A DNA stretch of 27,117 nucleotides from a virus: IMG/VR virus record IMGVR_UViG_3300030042_000323, positions 1 through 27,117 of that record. One strand, 5' to 3'. Both the position numbers and the translations under genes were made by a program. How positions within the stretch are numbered: the stretch's first letter is position 1; every line of letters starts with the position of its first letter. A model generated the notes under the pieces. That model did not search any database and had not been told where the DNA came from. It saw nothing but the letters and a program-made list of their open reading frames with translations. This document shows, in pieces, positions 9,370 to 26,945 of the stretch.

Positions 9370-9597
9370 ATGACAACAATTACATCAAGCTTTTTAAGCT
9401 TAAATATTAGAGATATAATCCATGGGTTAATAATGGCTGTGGGCGGTGCTGTATTAGGCATTATTACCGGATCACTACAAACCGGCAACTTAACCTTTAA
9501 TTATACAGCCATTTGGCATGCAGCAGCTACCGCAGCCGTTGTTTATTTGGGCAAGAAATTCTTTACCCCATCCCAACAAGTTAAACCTGTTCAATAA
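9370..9597 (+). CDS. Holin candidate, two membrane segments
   Basis: A 75-residue protein with two hydrophobic segments: about 15-35 (IHGLIMAVGGAVLGIITGSL) and about 46-61 (AIWHAAATAAVVYLGKKFF). It has a short polar C-terminal tail. Small size, two membrane spans and a position just before an endolysin gene support a holin, the membrane protein that times release of the lysin. The TAA stop overlaps the next ATG (TAATG at 9595-9599), indicating translational coupling with the endolysin. Sequence alone does not prove pore formation. Confidence 0.65.
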   Translation: MTTITSSFLSLNIRDIIHGLIMAVGGAVLGIITGSLQTGNLTFNYTAIWHAAATAAVVYLGKKFFTPSQQVKPVQ

Positions 9598-10169
9598 TGG
9601 CCGATTTTCTTAAAGCATACGAAATAACCGTTCTCGGCAATGAGCGTGGTTACAATCCCGGCATTGATGAAAAAGAAACCTATATGGGTATTGATCGCGG
9701 AGCAAACCCCGGCTGGGATGGGTGGGTTATTATTGATGCTGCCAAAAGGACTAATCCCGATATGACTATACCCAAAATGGACATACTGCTTTCGCAGAAC
9801 ATATCCCTGCAAAGCAATATTGAAAATTTTTATAAAATTAATTACTGGGATCCTGTAAATCTTACCCATATAAATGACCAGCAATTAGCCAGTAATCTTT
9901 TTGATTGTGCTGTTAACCAGGGTGAAGGCCTTGCACGCAAGTTTATGCAAATTGCCTGTAACTATGTAATAACAACAACAAAGGCCGCAATAGAAACCCT
10001 TACCATTGATAAAATAATTGGCCCGGCAACATTAATCGCAATTAATACATTGCCACCGCCAATGCTTAATGCGGAAATAAATGCAGAAAGAGAAGCCAGT
10101 TATCGCTCAGATAGCGGATATGCAATCTGGGGCAAGATTTGGGAAAAACGGTTAACAAAATATACATAA
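9597..10169 (+). CDS. GH108-family endolysin (N-acetylmuramidase type)
   Basis: A 190-residue phage lysin that would cleave the glycan backbone of peptidoglycan. The N-terminal region has the GH108 ExGY-type motif NERGYN with the predicted catalytic Glu16, followed by KETYMGIDRGANPGWDGW (27-43), the family's substrate-pocket block. Residues about 95-185 match the accompanying PG_binding_3 region (ASNLFDCAVNQGEGLARKF, then IDKIIGPATLIAIN). Length is normal for the family. No signal peptide is present, so access to the wall would need the holin encoded immediately upstream. Confidence 0.85.
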   Translation: MADFLKAYEITVLGNERGYNPGIDEKETYMGIDRGANPGWDGWVIIDAAKRTNPDMTIPKMDILLSQNISLQSNIENFYKINYWDPVNLTHINDQQLASNLFDCAVNQGEGLARKFMQIACNYVITTTKAAIETLTIDKIIGPATLIAINTLPPPMLNAEINAEREASYRSDSGYAIWGKIWEKRLTKYT

Positions 10170-10890: not shown

Positions 10891-10896
10891 TTATTG

Positions 10897-10980
10897 TGCC
10901 CGGAACGAGATTCGAACTCGTACATTCTTACGAATGCCACCCCCTCAAGATGGTGCGTCTACCAATTTCGCCACCCGGGC
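10897..10980 (-). tRNA. tRNA-Leu (anticodon GAG)
   Basis: The minus strand folds as a class II tRNA: 7-bp acceptor stem (GCCCGGG with UCCGGGC), D-arm with GGCGAAAUUGGUAGACGC, anticodon stem CCAUC/GGUGG with loop UUGAGGG, a long variable arm (CAUUCGUAAGAAUG), T-arm with UUCGAAU, and discriminator A. CCA is not encoded. The 3' end faces the prophage, the usual orientation for phage integration into a tRNA gene. Confidence 0.95.
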
Positions 10981-10988
10981 ATATAAAT

Positions 10989-11061
10989 CGAAAGTCTTAA
11001 GTCCAAAATTCTCAGTCATCTACCGACTTTTAACTTTCAACTTAAGACTTTCAACTTTCGA
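10989..11061. repeat. Heptad-phased repeat between two tRNA-Leu genes
   Basis: Five 7-nt words run in phase from 11027 to 11061, two of them identical (ctttcaa at 11034-11040 and 11048-11054). A perfect 12-bp inverted pair joins 10990-11001 with 11041-11052. It lies between co-oriented tRNA genes, so it would be transcribed if they form one unit. The build is the same as in the prophage spacers, showing that such arrays are not confined to the prophage. Confidence 0.7.
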
Positions 11062-11068
11062 ATAGATG

Positions 11069-11152
11069 TGCCCGAAGAGAGACTCGAACTCTCAAGAGAC
11101 AATTCTCAACGGCTTCTGAGACCGCAACGTTTACCAATTTCGCCATCCGGGC
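11069..11152 (-). tRNA. tRNA-Leu (anticodon CAG)
   Basis: The minus strand gives a class II tRNA with acceptor GCCCGGA/UUCGGGC, anticodon stem GCGGU/GCCGU with loop CUCAGAA, a long variable arm and a T-loop UUCGAGU. CCA is not encoded. It precedes tRNA-Leu(GAG) in the direction of transcription, and a promoter-like element is upstream. Confidence 0.95.
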
Positions 11153-12423: not shown

Positions 12424-12496
12424 GATTCCGTAGCTCAGCTGGTAGAGCATAACACTTTTAATGTTGGGGTCCTGGGTTCGAATCCCAGCGGGATCA
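12424..12496 (+). tRNA. tRNA-Lys (anticodon UUU)
   Basis: The 73-nt sequence folds fully: acceptor GAUUCCG with CGGGAUC, D-loop AGCUCAGCUGGUAGAGCA, anticodon stem UAACA/UGUUG with loop CUUUUAA, T-arm CUGGG/CCCAG with UUCGAAU, and discriminator A. CCA is not encoded. Its 3' half is the likely attachment site of the island. Confidence 0.96.
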
Positions 12497-12542
12497 CAGA
12501 GCAAACACAAAGTACCAGGGTTTGCATTCGTTTTTTGGCGTA

Positions 12543-12725: not shown

Positions 12726-12798
12726 TTATTCTGGTCTATTGTATCAGTTTGATTTTCAGTTTAAAAACGTATGGTTTTATTTTTTAAACAAAAATCTC

Positions 12799-14043
12799 AT
12801 GAAAGTAAATGAAGATCTATCAATTTTATTTTGGCTGAATCGCCAAAAGGCATCTAAAGACGGACAAGTTCCAATTTGGGTGAGAATTACCATTAATGGC
12901 AACCGCGACGGTTTTTCCTCAGGAAAAAAAATACAACCTGACGCATGGGATGAAAAGGCTGCTATTGCTACAATGAACTGCCCGGACTATAGACTAATTA
13001 ACAGCTATGTAGCCAAAACGAGGGTGGAACTGGAACGGCATTATAACCAGCTTGCCGCTGTTAATAAAAGAGTAACCGCTGCAATGGTCAAAGAAGCCTA
13101 TATGCCTAAACAGGTTTTACAAAAATCTTTAATGCAGGCTTTTAAGCTTCACAATGATGAATTTGCAGAAAGGGTTAGCAAAAACAAGGGCACAAATGGC
13201 ACTTTGGCGCGATATGAGCGCTTGAAAGATAAAGTCCAGGACTTCCTTAAAAAGAAATTTAAGATGGCGGATATGCCATTAGAAGATATCGAAATGGTTT
13301 TTGCAGTTAATTTCTTTCATTATCTCACAATGGAAAACATTGGTGATAATACTGCTATGAAATATGTAAAAACACTTAAACAGATTATTGATCGCGCAAT
13401 TGATGAAGGATGGATAAAACATAATACGATTTCAGGTTTTAAATGCACCTATGTTGACCCTGACCGAGAAACGCTTGAAATGCATGAGTTAGTTGGAATG
13501 TATAAAAAAGAAATAGCTGTAGAACGTTTAGCTGAGGTCCGAGATGTTTATGTGTTTTGTTGTTTCACTGGTTACGCTTATGAAACAGTTTATAATCTTG
13601 AGCCTGCTAATATTTTTAAAGGTTTAGATGGCAAACCCTGGATCACGAAAGACCGGAAAAAAACAGGTGTAGAAGAAACCGTTCCATTATTACCAATTGC
13701 ATTGGAGATTATCGAAAAATATAAAAGACATTCTTACTGTGTGAATGAAAACAAACTGCTGCCGGTTAATAGCAATGTTAGATACAATGCTTATATAAAA
13801 GAGGTGGCTACAATTTGTGGAATTAAAAAGGAACTTACCACGCACACGGCAAGACACACGTTTGCTACTACGGTTACTCTTGAAAATGATGTACCCATTG
13901 AAACAGTAGGAAAAATGTTAGGCCATAAGGATTTACGATCTACTCAAAAATACGCTAAGATCACCAAGAGAAAGATCAGCAATAATATGCTGGCATTGGA
14001 GAGCAAAATTTTTGGAGAACAGGGACAATTGACGAATTATTAA
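12799..14043 (+). CDS. Tyrosine recombinase/integrase, IntDOT-like
   Basis: A site-specific integrase that would insert and excise the island. From ATG 12799 it has 414 residues; an in-frame TTG at 12739 would add 20 unlikely residues. The N-terminus (SILFWLNRQKASKDGQVPIWVRITINGN) is the Arm-DNA-binding domain typical of Bacteroidota integrases. A SAM-like core-binding domain follows (about 105-210), then the catalytic domain. Catalytic H349-x-x-R352 (HTARH), H376 (LGH) and nucleophile Y385 are present. The usual first Arg is replaced: the TGYAYE segment has A260 at that place, as in several Bacteroidota integrases including IntDOT (Ser there). It is followed by a strong terminator, so it is transcribed alone. 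Placement by tRNA-Lys supports tRNA-directed integration. Confidence 0.9.
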   Translation: MKVNEDLSILFWLNRQKASKDGQVPIWVRITINGNRDGFSSGKKIQPDAWDEKAAIATMNCPDYRLINSYVAKTRVELERHYNQLAAVNKRVTAAMVKEAYMPKQVLQKSLMQAFKLHNDEFAERVSKNKGTNGTLARYERLKDKVQDFLKKKFKMADMPLEDIEMVFAVNFFHYLTMENIGDNTAMKYVKTLKQIIDRAIDEGWIKHNTISGFKCTYVDPDRETLEMHELVGMYKKEIAVERLAEVRDVYVFCCFTGYAYETVYNLEPANIFKGLDGKPWITKDRKKTGVEETVPLLPIALEIIEKYKRHSYCVNENKLLPVNSNVRYNAYIKEVATICGIKKELTTHTARHTFATTVTLENDVPIETVGKMLGHKDLRSTQKYAKITKRKISNNMLALESKIFGEQGQLTNY

Positions 14044-14142: not shown

Positions 14143-14174
14143 CGAATAAATAAAAGTTCAAATTCTATAAGGAA

Positions 14175-15068
14175 TTATAAAAAATTGATGCTTATTTGAT
14201 AATCAAATAAATTTCGAATCGCTATCCCAAAACGAACTTTTGGATATATCGCACGAGCTAAATCTGTTATATAAATTCGATCTTCATTACTGATCTTTTC
14301 GCCAAATATGATGGATTTAACAGCAGAAATAGGATACTTAAAAAGTTCGCCTGAAAGTTCATTTTTCTCAGAATGAAATATAAGCCGCATTTCTTTTTCA
14401 TAACACCATTCAAGTGGTTTAACACCCAACTGTATTGAATATAAATTAAATAATAATTTTTTCGATTTTTTCAGCCAATCAGAATAAACTCTAATATTTT
14501 GTGCGTTATGACTTTTGACATACCTTCTGTAAGACAATTCTTCATCTATAACCATCTCGTGGAAGTCAACTTGATCAGCTGCAACACTGTAAACCATCGT
14601 ATCAAAATAGACAGGTTTTCTTTTGTATTTAACTTTAAGAATCACCGATTTATTTGACAGCTTAATCAATTCATCCGCATCAAATTCGATGCAGAAACCC
14701 CGAAGGCCATCAGTGTAATGCGACCACATTAGTAAATTTGAAATTTCTCTGCTGAAACAGCAAATGCGAGCACTATCAATATATTTTGATATATTTTGTG
14801 AATAATCATTATCAAACTGTTCACAGTATTCAAATAATTGGTTTATACCTTCTGCGCTGTAATCTGGTTCATCAAAACCCCATGCCCGGTAAACCTCAGC
14901 ATAGCGACTTTTCTCATTTACTGAATGCGGAATCCCCTTTTGGATAATTGACCAACATTCAAACGGATCATTAAATGCTTGGTAATGATTGCAAAAAACT
15001 TCACTTTTTTTTAATCCCTCAAGCGAATGGTCATTAATTTGATGAAATTTAAAAACACTATTATGCAT
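14175..15068 (-). CDS. DUF2971 family protein
   Basis: A 297-residue protein of the DUF2971 family. Characteristic blocks are VFKFHQIND and FNDPFECW near the N-terminus, a central ICCFSREISNLLMWSHYTDGLRGFCIEFD (about 108-136), and a late PLEWCYEKEMRLIFH (about 226-240). The biochemical role of the family is not established; it turns up repeatedly among accessory and defence genes. It is the last gene of the minus-strand operon, 35 nt after its upstream neighbour, and probably belongs to the DUF262/AAA cassette or is an added module. Transcription would end toward the palindrome at 14089-14121. Confidence 0.75.
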   Translation of the reverse strand: MHNSVFKFHQINDHSLEGLKKSEVFCNHYQAFNDPFECWSIIQKGIPHSVNEKSRYAEVYRAWGFDEPDYSAEGINQLFEYCEQFDNDYSQNISKYIDSARICCFSREISNLLMWSHYTDGLRGFCIEFDADELIKLSNKSVILKVKYKRKPVYFDTMVYSVAADQVDFHEMVIDEELSYRRYVKSHNAQNIRVYSDWLKKSKKLLFNLYSIQLGVKPLEWCYEKEMRLIFHSEKNELSGELFKYPISAVKSIIFGEKISNEDRIYITDLARAIYPKVRFGIAIRNLFDYQISINFL

Positions 15069-15103
15069 GGATAATTCGAAGCCTCAAATAATAATTATAA
15101 TGA

Positions 15104-16033
15104 TTATAAAAGACCATTAAGAAGCAATGTTTGTTTAATTGCCGATGCCGCATTTTTGATCTGATTATCCTGCTCTTTGGTCTTTCCTTCTTTTGTCGGT
15201 TTTTTATCTATAGACGCAAAAATGACTTCCGATTTTGTTTCATAGAAATAAAGTCTGTAAGCACCAGGATTAAATATTCTCAGTTCGCAAACTCTGATTT
15301 CTTTTTCATTATCGGGGGTTACGTCTTTAACGATATCATTATCAGGGAAAAATTTTGATGTTCCGTCTCGTTTTATGGCTTTTTCTATCCTGCCAATAAC
15401 TCCTATTTGGGTATCTGCATCAAGTTTTTCAAAACCATTTTGAAATTTTGGACTAAAATAGTTATCTCCCGAAATGTCAAGTAATCTTTCAAAATTGCCT
15501 AATTTCTCACGTCTCGCTAAGACAATGATTTTTTCAATTTCCTTAGTATTTGCAGGTTCGCCATACAGGTTATTAAGTTCTGTAATGCTTCCATCACTTC
15601 CTGATAACGACAAAGGATGTATTCTTAGGTCATCACTCAGACCCAAACTGAACGCGTAACCGGAATTATCTGCCACAACTTTGAGGTAATACGCATCTTT
15701 TGGATTTTGACCGACAAATAGTGTATAGTCGTTTATTACCATTTCCTCCTCATTAGTTTCTGTAAAGTGGGAGTTGAATGGATACTTTGTAAATGCGCTG
15801 TATGCGGCAGATCTCAAAGTACGTTCCAAGTTGCCTATGCACATTGCAAGCGAATAGTTATCAGCCGAAAGCATTACCTGTTGAGCATCAGTAACAGTGA
15901 CAATTCCATCCACATCGTTGGGATGATTTTTTTTCAGCGTATTATATTCCGTGTAGGTTGCTGAAAAAGCCGAAGATATAATTTCCGGCGCAATGCCCTC
16001 CGGCGTGCAGGTATTTAAATAAAATAAATTCAT
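15104..16033 (-). CDS. Unknown cassette protein with RelE/HigB-like C-terminal region
   Basis: A 309-residue protein. The first about 185 residues match nothing I know. Residues about 195-305 follow the pattern of the RelE/HigB toxin superfamily: two helices (FQNGFEKLDADTQIGVIGRI ... AIKRDG), a strand pair CELRIFNPGAYRLYFYET, then VIFASIDKKPTKEG and a helix in which an alanine follows the lysines (QIKNAASAIKQ). This is a pattern-level call, not a database match. The start codon directly abuts the stop of the AAA ATPase gene (16034), so translation is almost certainly coupled. It may be the effector of the cassette, or use the fold for binding only. Confidence 0.6.
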   Translation of the reverse strand: MNLFYLNTCTPEGIAPEIISSAFSATYTEYNTLKKNHPNDVDGIVTVTDAQQVMLSADNYSLAMCIGNLERTLRSAAYSAFTKYPFNSHFTETNEEEMVINDYTLFVGQNPKDAYYLKVVADNSGYAFSLGLSDDLRIHPLSLSGSDGSITELNNLYGEPANTKEIEKIIVLARREKLGNFERLLDISGDNYFSPKFQNGFEKLDADTQIGVIGRIEKAIKRDGTSKFFPDNDIVKDVTPDNEKEIRVCELRIFNPGAYRLYFYETKSEVIFASIDKKPTKEGKTKEQDNQIKNAASAIKQTLLLNGLL

Positions 16034-17047
16034 TTACAAAAGTTCAGATGAGTTTTTTTCAAATTGGTCAAAAAAGTTTGTTGGCCATTCATCTAATCTG
16101 CCATTATTATCAAGTATCGGAGAAGCAACATCGGTAAGCTGATTCTTATCGAGTTCAAACCAATGGAATTGCACATTATCGCCAAAATCACCGAAGCGTT
16201 TCGCTGCAATCCTTATTCCATCGAAAATATGGTCGCTATGGGTCTCAATAATAACCTGTGATCCTGTCCGTGTGCATAATGCTATCAGGTTCGCTATTTC
16301 TGTTTGACCTTTTGGATGAAGATGCGCTTCTGGATTTTCAATTATTACAACACTATTCTTTATTAGGGTGCCTACCAATAGTGCTGTTATTACCGGCAGA
16401 ATATAACTGAGGCCAAAGCCTACGTTAGTCGACCTATGTTCATTAAACATACTGTAGGACATATCGCTCAATTCGACTAATTCAAAGCTAAACTTAGTGT
16501 TAGGTGAAATTTTATTTAACCAAGACTGGAGGACAAATATAAACTGATCATTTTCAGATTCTTTTAATACGAGGGTTTCGTCAAGATGTTCGTATTCATA
16601 AGACCTAATGCATTGAAGAACATTCTCACCGTTAGGACCTATCTTATTAATCAGGTTTGCATCATTATAAATTTGAATACCTCCCCTTGGACCGAACCTA
16701 TCTGCTGCAATGTAAATTATCTCTGGAAAGTCTGAAGGCACATCTCCGCTTATTACTTTATAATCTGCTTCTTCAATTGGAATCTCGATTGCAAGGTCGC
16801 CAGTGTCAAACTGAACTGATAATCCGATATTGCCTGATGAATTTGAATTCCTAAGTTCTTTAGCAGTGCCATGTCCATACAGCAAAACGCTTTTTTCCTT
16901 CTTCGAAGCTTTTTCGAGCATAAGTAATGCCTGAATTACAGAACTTTTTCCGCTACTATTCAATCCTGTCAAAACTGTCAGTGGGCTTAGATTAATATCG
17001 CGTTCTAAAAAAGACTTAAATGCAGAAAGGCGAATAGACTTTATCAT
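16034..17047 (-). CDS. AAA/ABC-type ATPase with DUF3696-like C-terminus
   Basis: A 337-residue RecF/OLD-like P-loop ATPase. It has Walker A GLNSSGKSS (28-36), an ABC-signature-like TNVGFGLSYILP (207-218), Walker B VVIIENPEAHLHP (233-245) and an H-loop-like ETHSDH (269-274). The C-terminus (NGRLDEWPTNFFDQF, 315-329) matches the DUF3696 ending. No nuclease (TOPRIM) domain follows, unlike OLD proteins, so any killing activity must come from a partner. Its ATG overlaps the DUF262 stop by 4 nt and its stop abuts the next gene, so the three products are probably made in fixed ratio and act as a complex. Confidence 0.88.
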   Translation of the reverse strand: MIKSIRLSAFKSFLERDINLSPLTVLTGLNSSGKSSVIQALLMLEKASKKEKSVLLYGHGTAKELRNSNSSGNIGLSVQFDTGDLAIEIPIEEADYKVISGDVPSDFPEIIYIAADRFGPRGGIQIYNDANLINKIGPNGENVLQCIRSYEYEHLDETLVLKESENDQFIFVLQSWLNKISPNTKFSFELVELSDMSYSMFNEHRSTNVGFGLSYILPVITALLVGTLIKNSVVIIENPEAHLHPKGQTEIANLIALCTRTGSQVIIETHSDHIFDGIRIAAKRFGDFGDNVQFHWFELDKNQLTDVASPILDNNGRLDEWPTNFFDQFEKNSSELL

Positions 17048-18765
17048 AATAGGTATTTTAAAACTAATGTATTCAATTTGGAATGGCGCTCTATAACCGA
17101 AGTGTGTTTTAGCGCGTTACGGGAGACTACTTGTTTAAAGCTATCTTTTGCAAGATAATTAAGGTTGTAGTCATTAATAAAGTCCTTTTTATTTTCTGAC
17201 AGTTTCTCAAATTCTTCACTGGTAAGTTTAGAAAAGATTGCGCCCCATGTTTCAAAAAGTGCTTTGTTAACAGGCGTTTTGCGAAGACCGTAATAACTGG
17301 TTCGAAAATTATGTTCGCCGAAAATCAGTTGTGTTCTTTTCATGGCAGATAAAAATCTTGCTTCAATCATTTTCAATGAATCGATTTGTATATCGTCTCG
17401 ATGTATCCTTTCATTAAAAAGCTTTTTTGTTGTTGAAGGTGTAAAATCTGGCATCGCATTGATAATTCGCATAGTATCACTCAAAAAAGTATCAACGTCA
17501 CCGCTTTTTGGATATTTTGAATAATCTCTTATCATGAATGCGATACAGCGGAGTATGAACTCACGGTCGACCATTCTGTTAGCTTTGAGTTTATTATCAG
17601 TGGCATTTTTGAATGTTTGTTTAGAAGCCAGCAACTTCAGCAAATCGGTTGAGTTACCTACATATAATGCGTGTCGTATTTCCTGGTCGGTAAGCGGCAC
17701 TCCACCAGTATTAATTCTTTTAAATATATTTCTTTTGACATCTTCAGGTGTTCCGGGATTGATGATTGTGAAAGAAAATTCAGTTTCCATAATCCGATTT
17801 TGGATATGAACTGGAAGGCCTTTAAATTGAAGATTATTAAAACTTGGACCCCAAAATTCAAGATTCTTTAATTTTATCCCATAACCGCTTACGCTTTCAT
17901 CTTTTGTCTCTAAATAATTTTTGCCCAATACAAAATCACGTATTGTGCTGAGTCTTTGAAGACCGTCAACTACATTAAAATTGCCATCGTCATCAATTGA
18001 AACGTAAAACATCGGCAGTGGAATTTTCAGCATCAGGCTTTCGATGAGCCTGCATTTTTTCTCATCAGTCCATACTTCATTTCGCTGAAAATCGGGATTA
18101 AGGTTTATTGTTCCCTGTTTAATTCGCCTTAAAATTGTGTCCATTGATATACCCTTGGTATCAATGGAAATCTTCATAGGGTCAAACGGTACAAAATCCT
18201 CATTATCAGGAGTTATTTCGTCTTCTTCATCAACAGACTCATCGCTATAATCGGAAAAAAGCTGGAAATAATATAAAACGTCGCCTTCTTCAGATATCAT
18301 TTTATTGATATTCAAATAAGATATTACAGGAAGAGATATTTCTCTAATAAGCTTATACCCCGCATCAGTTGAATTAACATATATACGAGGTCCAGCAATC
18401 TGATCCTGGTCCTTTATTGTAAAGAAAATTGTCTGATTTAAAGTGTTAATTTGAAGTTTTCTTTCGTCCCAAAATTCAAGAAGTTGGTCTTTATACCTGT
18501 ATTCTTGTGTTGGGTGTAGATATTCGGTACGGGATTCATCAAGATAAAGATTAAGGTCATTTCTAAGCAGAAAACAGTGTGCCTCAAATCCACGCTCACC
18601 AAAGAAAGATTTCAGATCGTCATTATCATATCCTACATATAACTTAGCTTCTCCGTTTCCTTCACCAATTTTGTTGGGACCCAAAACAAATGAATCAGCG
18701 ATTGTAATCCTGGTTTTTGTGTCCTGAATTGAATAAAGTTTGTTATTTATTAAGATGCTTTTCAT
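17044..18765 (-). CDS. DUF262 protein with unknown N-terminal domain
   Basis: A 573-residue protein. The DUF262 (GmrS/ParB-like NTPase) domain spans about 205-400, with NPDFQR (223-228), the DGLQR variant of the usual DGQQR (267-271) and FKRINTGGVPLTDQEIRHALY (348-368). DUF262 proteins are known in modified-DNA restriction (GmrSD) and in BrxU. Here the partner HNH/DUF1524 nuclease domain is absent: residues 400-573 are helical without an HNH motif. Residues 1-170 are a separate beta-rich domain I cannot name, followed by an acidic linker (173-190). It is the first gene of the four-gene cassette, with its own promoter box upstream. Confidence 0.85.
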   Translation of the reverse strand: MKSILINNKLYSIQDTKTRITIADSFVLGPNKIGEGNGEAKLYVGYDNDDLKSFFGERGFEAHCFLLRNDLNLYLDESRTEYLHPTQEYRYKDQLLEFWDERKLQINTLNQTIFFTIKDQDQIAGPRIYVNSTDAGYKLIREISLPVISYLNINKMISEEGDVLYYFQLFSDYSDESVDEEDEITPDNEDFVPFDPMKISIDTKGISMDTILRRIKQGTINLNPDFQRNEVWTDEKKCRLIESLMLKIPLPMFYVSIDDDGNFNVVDGLQRLSTIRDFVLGKNYLETKDESVSGYGIKLKNLEFWGPSFNNLQFKGLPVHIQNRIMETEFSFTIINPGTPEDVKRNIFKRINTGGVPLTDQEIRHALYVGNSTDLLKLLASKQTFKNATDNKLKANRMVDREFILRCIAFMIRDYSKYPKSGDVDTFLSDTMRIINAMPDFTPSTTKKLFNERIHRDDIQIDSLKMIEARFLSAMKRTQLIFGEHNFRTSYYGLRKTPVNKALFETWGAIFSKLTSEEFEKLSENKKDFINDYNLNYLAKDSFKQVVSRNALKHTSVIERHSKLNTLVLKYLL

Positions 18766-18838
18766 TAGTTGCAGTTACGCTAATCCATAAAGTTATAATA
18801 TTTAAAGGTAATGATATGTTACAAGTCTCCAAACCGAA

Positions 18839-18846
18839 CAAAAATA
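18839..18846 (-). promoter_or_regulatory. -7 box for the DUF262 cassette
   Basis: TATTTTTG on the minus strand fits TAnnTTTG and sits 73 nt before the DUF262 start. No convincing -33 box at the standard distance, though a TTTG lies 14 nt upstream. The 118-nt gap from the McrC-like stop supports a separate transcription unit. Confidence 0.45.
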
Positions 18847-18883
18847 GAGATTTTCGGATGCAAATATTTTTTGGGCTGTGAGA

Positions 18884-20230
18884 TCAGAGATCAGCCAGCG
18901 TTTCAATTGTGGAATCCGATAGTGGTTTTTGATTTATATAATTATCAAAAATTATATAGGGATTGAGATGGAAATTATGGATTGGCTTTGCAATTGCTGA
19001 ATTCTCAAGTGATACATAGCCAATATTTGTCATTGCAGGAGCACTTCTTTCGCGTCCGGGAAACATTAAAATATTTCTGTAACTGGTGTTATATTTTAAC
19101 CAATCTGCATTAGATGTAGCGCGATTAAGCACAAGTTCATAAAAATATTGTTTCACTATATCACCAACTCCCGGATTGTTTTCCGCTTTCTGATTTATTG
19201 CGTTGTAATCAAACAGGTAATATTTTGCATCTATGATCAGCACTACAGATGTGGTATCGTTTCTAATCCACTTAATTACATCTGGCCGTAGTGTGTTTTT
19301 TTCAGTTGTTTTCCCAAAGGCCAAATCAACCCATTCGGGTTTTGAAATAAATCCAGCTAATTCACGGTATTCATTTCTGAAATTAAATGAAACAGCATCT
19401 TCCCAAACGTGTTCAAACTTATTTTTTCCATAAAGGGTATAGTCCTGTACATTCGAACTTGTCCCAATTTTCATTAATTCTTTTAAGCTTTTTAAAAGCG
19501 AAATGTCCCTGTCATTGAAAGTTATCCTTAACTCTTTATTGATTATTTCAACGAGATACTCCAAATCGCCCAGTTCCTCGATATCCGTAGATTCTATTTC
19601 ATCAAAAGTGATCTCAAGGTCAAGGATTTCTGAATATCGTCCAGCAACATAGGATATCGCCCACTTGTGAATTCTGCTTATAATTGTATTGGAAATGGTT
19701 TCATTTCCTTGGGAAAACACATCAAAATAATATGGATATTTCGAAATAACAGGCTGTGATTTTTCTACCGTATAGTCCCATAAAATTTCGTTTCCATCAT
19801 CCTGTGCAATGTATTTATTTTGGTAACTCCATATTCCATTGCTCAGGTAATCTTTTAGTAAAAAATCTGCAAGGGCTATTTCACTGGTCTCAGATGATGA
19901 AGACTGATCATAAAATTCCAACCTGTTACCAAAATAGCTTGTGTTGATGTCATATTGTTTCAGTATCTTAACAATTGTCCGTCCCTCATTTATGAGAGTT
20001 CCTTCAAGTGGCGATTTATGAAACATATACTTTGGTAGAACACAAATAACATTATTTGCATTTGCTGCTATTCCTACGTAGCTAAATCTTACAAAATCGT
20101 TTTTAATGGAAAGGAAGCCTGACTGTAAAAAAGCGTTAAACAGCATCCCCAATTTAAGTTTGATATAATCTATTGAATAATCCTCAACTTGTTCGAATAA
20201 ATAAATTATGCCGTTCTCTTCGATTTGCAT
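18884..20230 (-). CDS. McrC/LlaJI-like restriction nuclease subunit
   Basis: A 448-residue nuclease partner of the McrB-like motor, resembling the LlaJI (R2)/McrC family. Residues 1-270 form a long N-terminal region typical of these subunits. The PD-(D/E)XK core is seen at RPD317 and D334-A-K336 (VVLIIDAKYY), with an acidic approach at FEHVWED (272-278). It would cut DNA once recruited by the AAA+ subunit, but McrC proteins are inactive alone. The gene begins 6 nt after the McrB-like stop, so both are co-translated. The full set here (C5-methyltransferase plus two restriction subunits) is closer to LlaJI than to methylation-dependent McrBC, so the site protected by methylation is probably the site attacked when unmodified. 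Confidence 0.8.
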   Translation of the reverse strand: MQIEENGIIYLFEQVEDYSIDYIKLKLGMLFNAFLQSGFLSIKNDFVRFSYVGIAANANNVICVLPKYMFHKSPLEGTLINEGRTIVKILKQYDINTSYFGNRLEFYDQSSSSETSEIALADFLLKDYLSNGIWSYQNKYIAQDDGNEILWDYTVEKSQPVISKYPYYFDVFSQGNETISNTIISRIHKWAISYVAGRYSEILDLEITFDEIESTDIEELGDLEYLVEIINKELRITFNDRDISLLKSLKELMKIGTSSNVQDYTLYGKNKFEHVWEDAVSFNFRNEYRELAGFISKPEWVDLAFGKTTEKNTLRPDVIKWIRNDTTSVVLIIDAKYYLFDYNAINQKAENNPGVGDIVKQYFYELVLNRATSNADWLKYNTSYRNILMFPGRERSAPAMTNIGYVSLENSAIAKPIHNFHLNPYIIFDNYINQKPLSDSTIETLADL

Positions 20231-20235
20231 AGACC

Positions 20236-21813
20236 CTAATTAATTTCAATTGCATCCAAAGCCTGCTGAAGTTCGTTTGTCAAAATGCCTGAAGCATCAT
20301 CGTAATGTTCAGTTATCTCACTAAATGTATCATATTTGAAAAATTGGCGATGATTATGACGCATTACGTCCTCTCGAAGATAGAGCAGAAGTTTATTCCT
20401 AATAGAGTTACTTTTAGTAAGTTCTTCTTTATCCATAAAAAATGGACCAATCAGGCGGTCTTCAGGAATTTTTTTTGCGATCAGGAAATCATTGATGACT
20501 TTTCTGAACTGATTCCATTTGTATTTTTTTAAACCAAAGGCAATTTCAGTATTAGCATGCTCTGCCTCATGTTCGTTGAGCGGTATGTATTCAAAATTCC
20601 AACGTCTTTTAAATGCTGCATCCATATGAAATACGCCTTGATCGGCACTGTTCATCGTTGCCCAAATGTACAAATTAGCCGGTAGAAAGATTCCATTTTC
20701 AATTAAAGTGTTTTTGTCTCCTAAGCTGTTTTTCAGATATTTCATTGCCTCTTCTGAGAGCATAACCTTGTACACGCTTTGGCCATTTTTACGGTCAAGT
20801 AACTGGAATGTCTCTCCGAAAACGGCTGCTGCATTAGCACGATTAATTTCTTCAATTAATAAAAGATAGGGCTCAGCCGATAGAAATGCTTCAGTAAGTG
20901 CTTTTAAAAACGGACCTGGTGAAAATGCGTAATCTATGACTGGTTCATTCAATATAGAAGGGTTTTTTCCTAAAGATTCTTTTGAATCATGATATTCATG
21001 CGCCAATGAATCTTTTTTATAATAGGTGGAAGGTTTGAAATTACCGACAAACTTAGCATACGAGTAATCTGGATAAAAAGTAACGCGAGACTTTCTGTTA
21101 CCGAAAACAATGGATTTGTCCTCAAGAAAGTGGCTTTTTCCAGTGCCTGGGGCGCCGTAAACTATAATGTTATGAGGCGAAGTAATTTTAAGATCAGTGA
21201 TTTTAACCAATTCCGCTGAATCCTTAAAAAATAATGTCCAGGCAAAAGCAAATTCACCCGCAGGGTTTTTATAGATCCCTATTTGGTAGCCAACCTGGTA
21301 AGGAACCAAAAGTTCTCTTAGAAAAAGTATCCCAACTGGTTTGAAAAATTTAAAATAAGGTTTTGTATTAGTAGTGTCTTTTATAAAAGTAACCTCAGAT
21401 TCAAATTTGATAATATCTGGCTGTGCGGATATACTATCCAAATAAACCGCCGGATCAAAATTGGGATTTTTATAAAGAGGGGCATTGGTTTTTAAATGAT
21501 TGTAGGTATGCCCAGCAATAGATAATAAATTTGACTTTGAAATATAATGGTTTACTTGAGCACCATCGCCTTCCCTTAATGCTGTTCCCCCAAATGCAAC
21601 ATTGTATTTTGCATTATAATTATTTATAAAAAAATCTTTGTTTGCTCCAAGATAGATGATTGTGTTGCCGCCATTAGCACTCCCGGCGAGCTTTCTGTCG
21701 TCTGTAGTATTTCCTTTAACAAATTCATTTTTTGCCCAATCTATGCCTTCAAATATATTTTCGACAAACTCAAAATTATTTGTTGTAAGAAACTTCTCAA
21801 GATCAGATTGCAT
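20236..21813 (-). CDS. McrB-like AAA+ restriction subunit
   Basis: A 525-residue motor of the McrB/LlaJI R1 type. The AAA+ core has Walker A GAPGTGKS (220-227), Walker B LLLIEEINRAN (317-327), ATMNSADQ (385-392) and arginine-rich AFKRRW (400-405). McrB relatives hydrolyse GTP, but nucleotide choice cannot be read here. The N-terminal about 205 residues should recognise DNA. They contain IIYLGANKDFFINNYN and HTYNHLKTNAPLY but do not match a specificity domain that I know. It lies between the methyltransferase and nuclease genes. It is 105 nt from the methyltransferase gene, with a possible weak promoter in between, and 6 nt from the nuclease gene. Confidence 0.85.
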   Translation of the reverse strand: MQSDLEKFLTTNNFEFVENIFEGIDWAKNEFVKGNTTDDRKLAGSANGGNTIIYLGANKDFFINNYNAKYNVAFGGTALREGDGAQVNHYISKSNLLSIAGHTYNHLKTNAPLYKNPNFDPAVYLDSISAQPDIIKFESEVTFIKDTTNTKPYFKFFKPVGILFLRELLVPYQVGYQIGIYKNPAGEFAFAWTLFFKDSAELVKITDLKITSPHNIIVYGAPGTGKSHFLEDKSIVFGNRKSRVTFYPDYSYAKFVGNFKPSTYYKKDSLAHEYHDSKESLGKNPSILNEPVIDYAFSPGPFLKALTEAFLSAEPYLLLIEEINRANAAAVFGETFQLLDRKNGQSVYKVMLSEEAMKYLKNSLGDKNTLIENGIFLPANLYIWATMNSADQGVFHMDAAFKRRWNFEYIPLNEHEAEHANTEIAFGLKKYKWNQFRKVINDFLIAKKIPEDRLIGPFFMDKEELTKSNSIRNKLLLYLREDVMRHNHRQFFKYDTFSEITEHYDDASGILTNELQQALDAIEIN

Positions 21814-21917
21814 TTGTGATATAGTTTATGTTATAAATAACAATAATACGCACAAACTGGAATTAAAGGATAATTTATTAGCTTTTGTTTTAGCCATCAA
21901 TTAGCTAACTGAAATAG

Positions 21918-23156
21918 TTACCGTGTGTATTTGGTAATATCAATTTGTTTAAGCAAAGCAATAAGCACGTCAACAACAATACTGTTTCCTGCTTGGCGGT
22001 ACATTTGAGTGTCGCTAACTTCTATTTTAAAATCATCAGGAAACCCCATAAGTCTCAAGCATTCCCTTGGAGTTAATTTTCTTATTCGCCCTTGATTATG
22101 TGTTACATAATTATCAACACCAGCACGATGCATTTTATGCATAGTCTGTAAAAGCGGACGGGCGATAGTCAAATCTGTTTTTGTACTTGTTCTGAAATTT
22201 TTTGTTCCTCCTGCAAGCACATAGTCACGGACTTTATCTGACAAATAGTACTTTTCTTCTACTTCATTAACATTGAAAATAAATTCATCTGAATTAAGTG
22301 ACTCATATACTGATTCGAACACAAAGTCACCATGCCAGTTAAATTGTTGATTTGCTTTTTGACAAAGCGCAATGTTACCATTGATTTGCGTGTATCTTTT
22401 ATTTCTGTTTTTCGAACTTGTTACGAATTTTACACCTTTTTCCTTCAAATAATATTTAGAATCAATGTAATCTTCCAGAAAATCCTGCATGGTATGTTCA
22501 AGCTGTACTTTTTCCGGAAAACTAAAACTTGCCTTTTTATTTCTGAAGGCAACAACAAAAATCCTTTCACGATGCTGCGGTATTCCGAAATCTTTACTAT
22601 TTAAAATTTGGGAATGAATCTTATAACCAAGATCTTGAAATACATCCTGCACTACTTGCCAAGTTCTACCGCCGTCGTGGTTTACTAATCCTTTGACATT
22701 TTCGAAAATAAAAACATTAGGCATTGTTTGAGAAACAATTCTCGCAAAATCATAGAAAAGGGTACCGCGAATATCCTCTAATCCAAGCCTCTTGCCGACC
22801 ATTGAAAATGCCTGACAAGGACTTCCTCCAACAAGCAAATCAATTTTGCCTTTATATTTTTCTGCATTAAATTTAGTTACATCATCGTGCCAATCCTCTT
22901 CATTCAGCATATAATTTGCCAGGTAACTCTTTTTTACATGTGGATCAATATCCCCGGCAAATATCACTTCATGTTTTAGGTTTAACCGTTTAAAAGCAGT
23001 TTCAATAGCACCAATACCACTAAATAGCGTACCTATACGTATTGTTGAATTTGGTTTGGAAAATAATTTTGAAAGCAAATTTTGCGTTTCAGAAAGCGAA
23101 GTTTCAGCTTCTTGTATGGTAATTTGGTCAAGCAGCGTTACGTCTTCAAAAGCCAT
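21918..23156 (-). CDS. DNA (cytosine-5) methyltransferase
   Basis: A 412-residue methyltransferase that transfers a methyl group from AdoMet to cytosine C5. Motifs in order are: I FSGIGAIE (45-52), IV GGSPCQ with catalytic Cys114 (110-115), VI FENV (151-154), VIII QHRERIF (194-200), a target-recognition stretch (about 205-355), IX RKLTPRECLRLMGFP (359-373) and X QAGNSIVV (388-395). All needed residues are present, so it should be active. It is the modification partner of the restriction genes downstream. Its own promoter-like box lies 20 nt upstream, suggesting methylation can be established before the nuclease is made. The target cannot be read from sequence. Start ATG 23156. Confidence 0.95.
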   Translation of the reverse strand: MAFEDVTLLDQITIQEAETSLSETQNLLSKLFSKPNSTIRIGTLFSGIGAIETAFKRLNLKHEVIFAGDIDPHVKKSYLANYMLNEEDWHDDVTKFNAEKYKGKIDLLVGGSPCQAFSMVGKRLGLEDIRGTLFYDFARIVSQTMPNVFIFENVKGLVNHDGGRTWQVVQDVFQDLGYKIHSQILNSKDFGIPQHRERIFVVAFRNKKASFSFPEKVQLEHTMQDFLEDYIDSKYYLKEKGVKFVTSSKNRNKRYTQINGNIALCQKANQQFNWHGDFVFESVYESLNSDEFIFNVNEVEEKYYLSDKVRDYVLAGGTKNFRTSTKTDLTIARPLLQTMHKMHRAGVDNYVTHNQGRIRKLTPRECLRLMGFPDDFKIEVSDTQMYRQAGNSIVVDVLIALLKQIDITKYTR

Positions 23157-23175
23157 ATATGTAAGTTGGTTTTAA

Positions 23176-23183
23176 CAAAAATA
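23176..23183 (-). promoter_or_regulatory. -7 box for the methyltransferase gene
   Basis: TATTTTTG on the minus strand fits TAnnTTTG, 20 nt before the start codon. A 7-bp inverted pair (23211-23217, 23233-23239) lies just upstream and could be an operator or a weak terminator of the vsr transcript. Confidence 0.5.
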
Positions 23184-23270
23184 GAAATTGATAGTAATAA
23201 AACCAGACTTTTTAGCAAATTATTTTTCAACATGCTAAATTATCTGGCAATTTTTGTTAGTAAGCTAATT

Positions 23271-23699
23271 TTAAATACTATTAATTTTAGTCAGTTCCGA
23301 ATAGAGGTTTTCAAGGGTCGAAGGAAGTTTATTTCCTTTTAAATCACATTCCCAAATTTCTAAAACTTTCCAGCCTGCCTGAGTGAGCAAATTAGAAGAT
23401 TTTAAATCGTTTCGGGAATTAGTTTGTATTTTATTTAACCACCATTCCGATCTTGTTTTAGGAATCACATAATATTTGCATCCCTGGTGACCATGCCAAA
23501 AGCATCCTTGTATAAATATCGCCGTTTTATATTTCGGTAAAACAATATCTGGTTTTCCAGGAAGTGCTTTCACGTGTATACGATAACGAAGTCCTTTAGA
23601 AAAAAGATATTTCCGAACAAGCATTTCAGGTTTGGTATCCTTGCTGCGGATACGCGACATATTATAACTTCTTATTTCCTTGGAATGAACATCCCCCAT
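23271..23699 (-). CDS. vsr: Very short patch repair endonuclease
   Basis: A 142-residue Vsr endonuclease that nicks next to T:G mismatches left by deamination of 5-methylcytosine, limiting C-to-T mutation at methylated sites. Key positions line up residue for residue with E. coli Vsr: D51 (GKPDIV), C66-FW-H69-G-H71 (CFWHGH), then C74 and a later Cys in IWECDL (about 118) as zinc ligands, and the PKTRSEWWLNKI block (80-91). It is slightly shorter than the E. coli enzyme but intact. Its position before the C5-methyltransferase gene shows that the two serve the same modification system. Confidence 0.94.
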   Translation of the reverse strand: MGDVHSKEIRSYNMSRIRSKDTKPEMLVRKYLFSKGLRYRIHVKALPGKPDIVLPKYKTAIFIQGCFWHGHQGCKYYVIPKTRSEWWLNKIQTNSRNDLKSSNLLTQAGWKVLEIWECDLKGNKLPSTLENLYSELTKINSI

Positions 23700-24515: not shown

Positions 24516-25327
24516 TTAATCGTTGGTTTTTGGTTCGTTGAATGTCTTTTTTGGACTAAACCCTAAATTGCTAATCAAGGCTGAGTAAGTTATTTGACAA
24601 CTTGCTAAATTTTTTCTTGTCGCATCCGATCTGTTCGGCATCCAATAAGTTTGAGTTACTTTACCGCCAACATTGGAATCGTAATATTCAATTACTTTAT
24701 AATAGTATTCGGGTACGCTTATGGATATGCCGTTGTTTGAATAAGTGGATTGTTTTCCAAAAGTACCGCACCAAATTTTAACGCTGTCTGTTACCGCAGG
24801 AACTTTATAACCCGTAAGCTTTCTGCATAATTCTTCGGTTGCAAGTTCCGTTCCGATATTTTGCCCCTGATATTCCATACCCGCATTAAAAGTATAAGTG
24901 TCCGAAAGTAACGCAGCATCTAAAGACCAGGCCATTAAAATCCATGCCTGGCAATGACCTTTTGCAATCATTTCAACAGAATTAGGTTTGCCTATAATTT
25001 TATTCGCTTCCTTGTAAACGGATGTTTCATTTGGTTGCCCATAGACAGAGTGCCACGCTGAATAAGCACCGGTTCGCGGGAGTTTAAGCGTTTCCTGTTC
25101 GAGCCTGTGAGCTTTTGTATAAATGTAAAAGGTTAACACCGGCTTATGAGCTATCGTATCTCCAATAGATTTGAAATAAGGATTTACCCAAAGCAGGCAA
25201 GCAGGACAAAGATCTGATTTTTGAGTAGGGTACTTTTCTAAAGTTCCTTTACATAGGCGGCAGAAGGTTTTTGCGCTTTGAGTATGGATGAAATTAAAAG
25301 AAATGCAACTACAGTAAAACGCTTCAT
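24516..25327 (-). pseudogene. Frameshifted secreted DNA/RNA non-specific endonuclease
   Basis: A minus-strand ATG at 25327 opens a clear signal peptide (KRFTVVAFLLISSILKAQ) but stops after 29 codons (stop 25238-25240). A second frame, open from before that region to 24516, encodes a CxxC-x14-CxxC zinc-knuckle-like segment (CRLC ... CPAC), then YIYTKAH, KGHCQAW, a QGQNIGTELATEELCRKL block, VPEYYYKVIEY and YWMPN. The order resembles divergent members of the DNA/RNA non-specific endonuclease (NUC1) family. Adding one base to the A5 run (T5 on the + strand, 25268-25272) joins both frames into about 270 codons. So this is a one-base frameshift, a phase-variable state, or a sequencing error. The GTG at 25139 alone would give a 207-residue fragment without signal peptide. 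Confidence 0.65.
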
Positions 25328-25877: not shown

Positions 25878-26945
25878 TTAGTTATAAATCAACGCTTCGC
25901 TTCCCTGCGTTGCAAAATCACGGCAAAGGTTAAAGGCGGTTTGCGCCCGTTGTTTGGCTGTACCGTCCATGATAGATTTAAACTTAGCCTCATCACTTTT
26001 GAAACTGCGTACATTTTGAAAATAGCCCGTAACGCTGTTGTACGCGCCAAATACCGTTCCTGCGGTCGTGTCCATTTGCTGGGTCTGGCTGCCTAAAGCA
26101 TACTCATAAACATTATCTACAATATTGGTATAGTGTGTAGATAGCAGGTCTAATTTGGCCCCTGCTAAATTTTCCAAAACCTCTTTGTTTGGTGCCATTG
26201 CAATCTGTATCAGTTTTTTAACCTCTGCATCTGTAATACGCACCTTTGCCCACTGATTAAATAATCCTTCAAATTCACTGCCTAAAGATTTACTAATACC
26301 CATTAAGGTATGCGCCTGTTTAAGCCTCTCCGTAGCAGATGCCGTATGACGGATTTTAATCGCCCCTGAATGATTATTCATTGCGGCATTTAGTGTGTTG
26401 TTGCAAACTATCCTGATAGGCGTAAAAGCTGCGGTAATGCTTCCTAAACCATCGTGCGTAGTGGTTAAAAACAAATATTGTTCTATCCAGTCCTTTACAC
26501 CTACCCGTATATAATCAGGCAATTTAGCGGTTATAAAAACCCGCTCGCCGTTACCCAATGCCCCCGCTGTTTCGTATAAAATACCATCGCCACCGCCTAC
26601 AATCGCATCAAAGAACGAAAACGCATCACGGTTTTGTACTACTTCGTAATCATTGCCGACTACACCTAAAACCTGCTCGGTATCTGCCCTAACGGTTGCA
26701 AAAAAATTAGGCACTGCAATTTCAGGGATCATTATATCATCGCTGCCCTCGCCTAAATGGTTTGCGGTATCATAGGTAAATAACGGGCGTTTTTCCACTA
26801 TATAATCCAGCCCTGCGTGTTCTATAGCTTCGCTACTAGTTGGGTAGCGGTCTATAATTTGCCCTAACCCGTGCCAGGCTTTTTCCTTTACGCTCATAAA
26901 GCTGTCTTTGCCTGTTTTCTTGTTAAAATTTATTTGATGTGCCAT
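25878..26945 (-). CDS. DUF932 (phage/plasmid-like TIGR03299) protein
   Basis: A 355-residue protein of the DUF932 family, known from plasmids, phages and integrative conjugative elements of Bacteroidota. Diagnostic blocks are KEKAWHGLGQIIDRYPTSSEA (20-40), a FATVRADTEQVLGVVGNDYEVVQN segment (about 82-105), the FFDAIVGGGDGILYETAGALGNGERVFITAKLP block (about 110-142) and the ITAAFTPIRIVCNNTLNAAM block (about 170-190). The molecular role of the family is not settled. It is full length, co-transcribed with a 55-residue gene 4 nt upstream, and closed by a strong terminator. It suggests the window continues into an element's replication or maintenance region. Confidence 0.88.
   Translation of the reverse strand: MAHQINFNKKTGKDSFMSVKEKAWHGLGQIIDRYPTSSEAIEHAGLDYIVEKRPLFTYDTANHLGEGSDDIMIPEIAVPNFFATVRADTEQVLGVVGNDYEVVQNRDAFSFFDAIVGGGDGILYETAGALGNGERVFITAKLPDYIRVGVKDWIEQYLFLTTTHDGLGSITAAFTPIRIVCNNTLNAAMNNHSGAIKIRHTASATERLKQAHTLMGISKSLGSEFEGLFNQWAKVRITDAEVKKLIQIAMAPNKEVLENLAGAKLDLLSTHYTNIVDNVYEYALGSQTQQMDTTAGTVFGAYNSVTGYFQNVRSFKSDEAKFKSIMDGTAKQRAQTAFNLCRDFATQGSEALIYN

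Follow-up and report, generated by a model that had tools for sequence, protein, structure and literature searches.

A Menshen defence locus in which NsnA carries an N-terminal domain shared with restriction-modification systems

What kind of system is encoded by four co-oriented genes that lie beside a restriction-modification (R-M) set in a viral DNA sequence, and is that neighbor more than chance company? The genes are found in the IMG/VR record IMGVR_UViG_3300030042_000323, of which positions 1-27,117 (27,117 bases) were analyzed and are referred to here as the window. A preliminary description of the sequence had proposed a possibly undescribed four-gene defence system. Its layout of four minus-strand genes with a 4-nucleotide (nt) overlap, a 0-nt junction and a 35-nt gap, in that order, agrees with the open reading frame (ORF) coordinates, and Pfam returned the DUF262, DUF3696-ATPase and DUF2971 families that it had named. 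The description missed a domain of about 180 amino acids (aa) that precedes DUF262 in gene 1.

17044..18765, minus strand: NsnA (573 aa), DUF262/GmrSD_N NTPase-fold protein with an extra N-terminal recognition-type domain (PADLOC, Pfam)
18208..18765, minus strand: N-terminal domain of NsnA, aa 1 to about 180 (aligned stretch aa 1-186; profile matches)
16034..17047, minus strand: NsnB (337 aa), AAA_15/DUF3696 ABC-type ATPase (PADLOC, Pfam)
15104..16033, minus strand: NsnC (309 aa), predicted effector with a C-terminal RelE/HigB fold (PADLOC, Foldseek)
14175..15068, minus strand: DUF2971 gene (297 aa), PDC-S31 candidate (PADLOC 2.1e-40, Pfam DUF2971 1.9e-11)

Judged by their profile matches, genes 1-3 are the known Menshen system and not an undescribed one; the locus is a defence locus. 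The PADLOC Menshen models matched NsnA at 1.8e-124 (aa 176-570, i.e., the core, which starts at residue 176), NsnB at 2.6e-91 (aa 1-337) and NsnC at 7e-69 (end to end). The nsnA, nsnB and nsnC homologues are adjacent, on one strand and in the order of Menshen (Millman et al., 2022, via the PADLOC models; PMC10952713). Pfam identified GmrSD_N/DUF262 in NsnA (1.7e-26, aa 211-368) and no DUF1524 nuclease half, as in the definition of Menshen (PMC10952713), and it identified AAA_15 (7.6e-26) and DUF3696 (3.8e-12) in NsnB, with no TOPRIM domain detected. A DGLQR motif and a Walker A motif (GLNSSGKSS) are found in the translations. One Menshen component was described as an OLD-type nuclease in a review (PMC10952713); NsnB of the window consists only of the AAA_15 ATPase half and DUF3696, and, given that it covers positions 1-343 of the 345-position NsnB model, the reference NsnB of this lineage has the same length. 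The DUF262 restriction proteins GmrSD, BrxU and SspE share with NsnA a DUF262 with a DGQQR-type motif (DGLQR in NsnA); the DUF1524 HNH nuclease half that marks the type IV enzyme GmrSD is missing from NsnA, which has an ATPase and a RelE-fold partner instead.

The Menshen triad is kept across phyla. The NsnB gene was scored in 78 of 80 NsnB relatives drawn from different phyla, and same-strand neighbors within 200 nt were found upstream in 75 and downstream in 76 of these when L003, a near-identical copy of the window, was left out (76 and 77 with L003). The overlap between the NsnA and NsnB genes in these loci was mostly 4 or 8 nt. Relative to Menshen so defined, the window differs in that its NsnA has the additional domain, that the locus adjoins a C5-cytosine methyltransferase associated with that domain and that a DUF2971 gene comes after NsnC.

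NsnA and NsnB probably sense and switch, while the effector is likely NsnC, whose predicted model (pLDDT, i.e., predicted local distance difference test score, 86) supports a C-terminal RelE/HigB fold. Pfam found no domain in NsnC of the window, and NCBIfam gave a weak RelE/ParE match (0.019). Gp49, a RelE-like Pfam family, was found in 3 of 11 close NsnC relatives (best 5.9e-7) and, below the Pfam cut-off, in 1 of 20 distant ones. Foldseek aligned the model with HigB1 (target template modeling score 0.64-0.66) and E. coli RelE (0.71) at a probability of 1.00, despite E-values of only 0.003-0.03, and K236, R260 and K278 are invariant or almost so in close relatives. No sequence-level relatives of NsnC, NsnA or the NsnA N-terminal domain were found in PDB. 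Gene 3 had been called RelE-like and the effector had been sought in the third and/or fourth gene; the RelE-like assignment and the choice of the third gene are consistent with these results, and the fourth gene probably drops out.

The DUF2971 gene is probably an independent passenger and not a Menshen component. After NsnC, DUF2971 was seen only in the window, in L003 and in L091, a bacterial chromosome contig. It was absent from all 34 other same-strand fourth-position genes at Menshen loci (sequence search; 20 also by profile), and a Pfam scan of 21 fourth-position genes found it only in that of the window (as L003). By profile, DUF2971 was present in 14 of 49 Menshen-bearing genomes, in none of them at the Menshen locus (sequence search of loci), and its plasmid relatives occur without Menshen. 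Gene 4 matches PDC-S31, a PADLOC candidate with DUF2971 that is not part of Menshen. A new four-gene system with DUF2971 was thus ruled out by the Menshen match and by the lack of DUF2971 at the other Menshen loci examined. A match to a named system was also the outcome by which the preliminary description had offered to be judged, and of its four families only the triad forms a conserved set.

The first 180 residues of NsnA are 53% identical to those of NsnA of Flavobacterium sp. 11 (L006). Searches of Bacteroidota genome samples and viral contigs with a profile of this domain revealed matches in HNH restriction endonucleases (REases) of L093, L096, L103 and L113-L116, in a LlaJI-type AAA protein of L121 (1e-21) and in NsnA of L006, L091, L092 and L095. 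The domain occurs in five settings. In L093, L096, L103, L113, L114, L115 and L116, it is the front half of an HNH_2-type nuclease encoded directly after a methyltransferase of the same clade as that of the window. In L006, L092 and L095, it is on an NsnA encoded after the methyltransferase, and an HNH enzyme with a related domain is encoded just past NsnC. In L104 (L104:225-5238), it stands alone as a protein of 204 aa, flanked by a C5 methyltransferase on one side and MzaB/MzaC-like (Mza-like) genes on the other. In L121 (L121:6847-8988), it forms the N-terminus of the LlaJI-type AAA protein, whose gene follows that of the methyltransferase. In the window and L091, the methyltransferase is separated from the domain-bearing NsnA by LlaJI genes. 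All intact cases have the domain beside C5-cytosine methyltransferases of a single clade; L117 is a decayed copy in which fragments of the methyltransferase and the LlaJI-type AAA protein remain, and L111 gave a weak match (E 2.8e-5), with none of the query genes within its 3.3 kb. The HNH REase of L093 matches the solved HNH endonuclease 6yex (7e-26) with its nuclease half alone. The HNH type II R-M systems of L093, L103, L113 and L114 have the N-terminal domain and the methyltransferase clade in common with the window, and have an HNH_2 nuclease where the window has DUF262, NsnB and NsnC. On the 72-kb viral contig of L095 (L095:8001-9655), NsnA may be truncated: it stops after 500 aa, and 151 nt separate it from NsnB.

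The R-M set of the window is encoded directly upstream of Menshen.

21918..23156, minus strand: C5-cytosine DNA methyltransferase, proposed self-marking enzyme (Pfam DNA_methylase 9e-84)
20236..21813, minus strand: LlaJI R1-like McrB-type AAA protein (PADLOC REase_II 1.7e-54)
18884..20230, minus strand: LlaJI R2-type restriction endonuclease subunit (Pfam RE_LlaJI 7.6e-69)
23271..23699, minus strand: Vsr mismatch endonuclease of the R-M set (NCBIfam vsr 1.2e-42)

A C5 methyltransferase, an McrB-like R1 and a LlaJI R2 nuclease in one set are the components of LlaJI (PMC1459862). LlaJI has two C5 methyltransferases and the window has one, and the set is thus of the LlaJI type, not a LlaJI system proper. 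LlaJI is directed against unmethylated DNA, and it is the R1 subunit that binds its recognition site (PMC1459862). In the LlaJI-type set of L121 the domain is on the McrB-type motor protein R1, while in NsnA of the window it is fused to DUF262. The N-terminus of the LlaJI AAA protein of the window also matched the domain (hmmsearch 5e-6; hhalign E 2e-5, probability 77; two unrelated control profiles gave hhalign E-values of 0.4 and 0.5), and by this comparison it is probably a divergent relative of the domain. Both weapons of the island, LlaJI and Menshen, thus probably carry the same reader domain.

The methyltransferase of the window is 60-75% identical to those found beside the domain elsewhere and 97% identical to that of L091. 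In L006 the C5 methyltransferase is 69% identical to that of the window and its gene overlaps the NsnA gene by 4 nt; the corresponding overlaps are 17 nt in L092 and 1 nt in L095, and none of the three loci has LlaJI genes beside NsnA. The identities of the domain and of the methyltransferase co-vary (Mantel r 0.58, p 0.0008, 13 loci). By linkage and by co-variation, the domain is associated with a DNA methyltransferase in the way that an R-M recognition module is with its cognate enzyme. Because NsnA bears a recognition-type domain of that R-M family, the R-M set beside Menshen, to which the preliminary description had already pointed, does not look like chance company.

The domain appears on more than one lineage of NsnA. 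In the NsnA core, L092 is placed at a distance from the window, L006 and L095, and a tree in which the five domain-bearing NsnAs form one clade was rejected (p-AU, from the approximately unbiased test, 2.9e-7, a value that is somewhat flattering as the group of five was chosen after the first tree had been inspected). At least two NsnA lineages thus carry the domain in this R-M setting and, as far as these sequence trees tell, NsnA gained it at least twice. NsnC of L092 also matches another PADLOC model than NsnC of the window.

By analogy with the REases and LlaJI, we consider it reasonably probable that the window encodes a restriction-type Menshen, i.e., a variant that is triggered by DNA without the methyl mark of the host. 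The C5 methyltransferase would mark a short DNA sequence in the host genome, and the N-terminal domain of NsnA would bind the same sequence when it is unmarked, for example on incoming phage DNA. Binding would change the nucleotide state both in DUF262 and in the NsnB ATPase, NsnB would then free NsnC, and the RelE/HigB-fold end of NsnC would cut mRNA on ribosomes, so that the infection halts. Protection from the LlaJI endonuclease would come from this methyltransferase as well: one mark, two weapons. We lean, if slightly, toward a broader proposal in which a single recognition domain, together with a single clade of methyltransferases, serves as an address module plugged into an HNH nuclease, the LlaJI motor-nuclease, Menshen and an Mza-like set, and in which one methyltransferase of the window licenses both the DNA-cutting LlaJI and the mRNA-cutting Menshen.

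It is unlikely that the window instead encodes an ordinary Menshen with another trigger, in which the N-terminal extension is a leftover of an R-M gene fusion and the methyltransferase serves LlaJI only. Extension and methyltransferase are both missing from most Menshen loci, so Menshen works without either, and in the window the LlaJI genes separate the methyltransferase from NsnA. The domain is, however, under purifying selection between the window and L091 (dN/dS, the ratio of non-synonymous to synonymous substitution rates, 0.076), two distant NsnA lineages carry it in the same R-M setting, and L006, L092 and L095 lack LlaJI beside NsnA, yet their methyltransferase and NsnA genes overlap. 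That the domain serves as a back-up guard, monitoring a restriction enzyme or sites that have been blocked, for example by a phage anti-restriction protein, and triggering NsnC when restriction fails, is a still less likely explanation. It would fit the company of an HNH REase and an NsnA with the same kind of domain in L006, L092 and L095, and the presence of the LlaJI endonuclease alongside in the window, but a DNA-binding module is the natural reading of the domain, and plain site recognition requires no guard logic. An undescribed four-gene system that requires DUF2971 is very improbable: the gene is co-oriented, lies 35 nt past NsnC and is kept in L091 (dN/dS 0.16), but genes 1-3 match Menshen, and DUF2971 occurs in no other Menshen locus examined and on plasmids without Menshen. 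Across the window and L091, which are 12% diverged, purifying selection also acts on NsnA (0.038), NsnB (0.036) and NsnC (0.12).

Long N-terminal extensions of NsnA were also counted in the 80-locus sample, which had been collected by means of NsnB, independently of the domain. A C5 methyltransferase was found within 3 genes of 8 of 12 long N-extended NsnAs and of 1 of 64 others (Fisher 2e-7; 1e-6 against 2 of 64). The 12 include L003, which ends short of the methyltransferase, so that the one in the window was counted for it. Several points weigh against a trigger that depends on methylation. The 8 of 12 include related rows, there being six extension types, four of them with a methyltransferase, and for 4 of the 12 extended NsnAs no C5 methyltransferase lies in the vicinity. 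Homology between the domain of the window and the other long extensions is not recognizable (profile comparison for the gammaproteobacterial type). The methyltransferase of the window is three genes off from NsnA, without overlap, and could serve LlaJI alone. Foldseek found no significant PDB fold match for the AlphaFold2 model of the domain (pLDDT 90); B3 DNA-binding domains ranked 2 and 16 (E 0.21 and 0.56), a weak hint, and the N-terminal domain of LlaJI of Helicobacter pylori has a B3 fold (PMC7680126).

As for the other extensions, the gammaproteobacterial NsnAs of L055, L077, L080 and L081 have a different N-terminal domain of about 230 aa, and a C5 methyltransferase lies no more than three genes from each of them. 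A Lachnospiraceae Menshen (L069:888-10703) lies among an SNF2-type helicase, an MzaB-like ATPase, a C5 methyltransferase overlapping NsnA and Vsr. No REase with the gammaproteobacterial or the Lachnospiraceae extension was found in plasmids, and none with the gammaproteobacterial one in 274 genomes.

The island that contains Menshen and the R-M set follows a prophage-like left third of the window, two tRNA-Leu genes, one non-phage-like gene, a tRNA-Lys and an integrase.

1-1212: Clp-type protease, prophage-like part
9597-10169: glycosyl hydrolase 108, prophage-like part
10896-11152: two tRNA-Leu genes, end of the prophage-like part
12424-12497: tRNA-Lys adjoining the integrase (ARAGORN)
12739..14043, plus strand: tyrosine integrase of the island (Pfam Phage_integrase 2.5e-13)

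The G+C content drops from about 0.38-0.47 to 0.33-0.37 across roughly 13.5-25.5 kb. A search for a second, right-hand copy of the end of tRNA-Lys, which would mark the right border of the island, found none in the window. Genes for a DNA/RNA non-specific endonuclease (24516-25139) and DUF932 (phrog_1221; 25878-26945) lie right of the R-M set. L091, which was reached via the phylum of a Flavobacterium genome, also carries the island, with 88% DNA identity over 14160-23693. The stretch of 25.7-27.1 kb is 91% identical in L091, which has the same tRNA-Leu genes, while the sequence left of the tRNAs differs. L091 also has a Dazbog DzbA-like gene (PADLOC 6e-45) with a partner between integrase and DUF2971 (L091:4413-6337), which is absent from the window. 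The comparison identifies this position as an exchangeable cargo slot.

While Menshen is known, the N-terminal domain that NsnA shares with R-M recognition parts looks new. The literature searched described no methyltransferase-linked Menshen and stated no trigger of Menshen; a 2025 Menshen paper outside it (10.1093/nar/gkaf357) may overlap with the variant described here. This variant offers a concrete candidate trigger, an unmethylated DNA site, together with a marking enzyme in the same island. If so, R-M could direct abortive defence via a RelE-type toxin instead of DNA cutting, and recognition domains would move among unrelated weapons yet keep their methyltransferase, which would also account for the long NsnA extensions beside methyltransferases.

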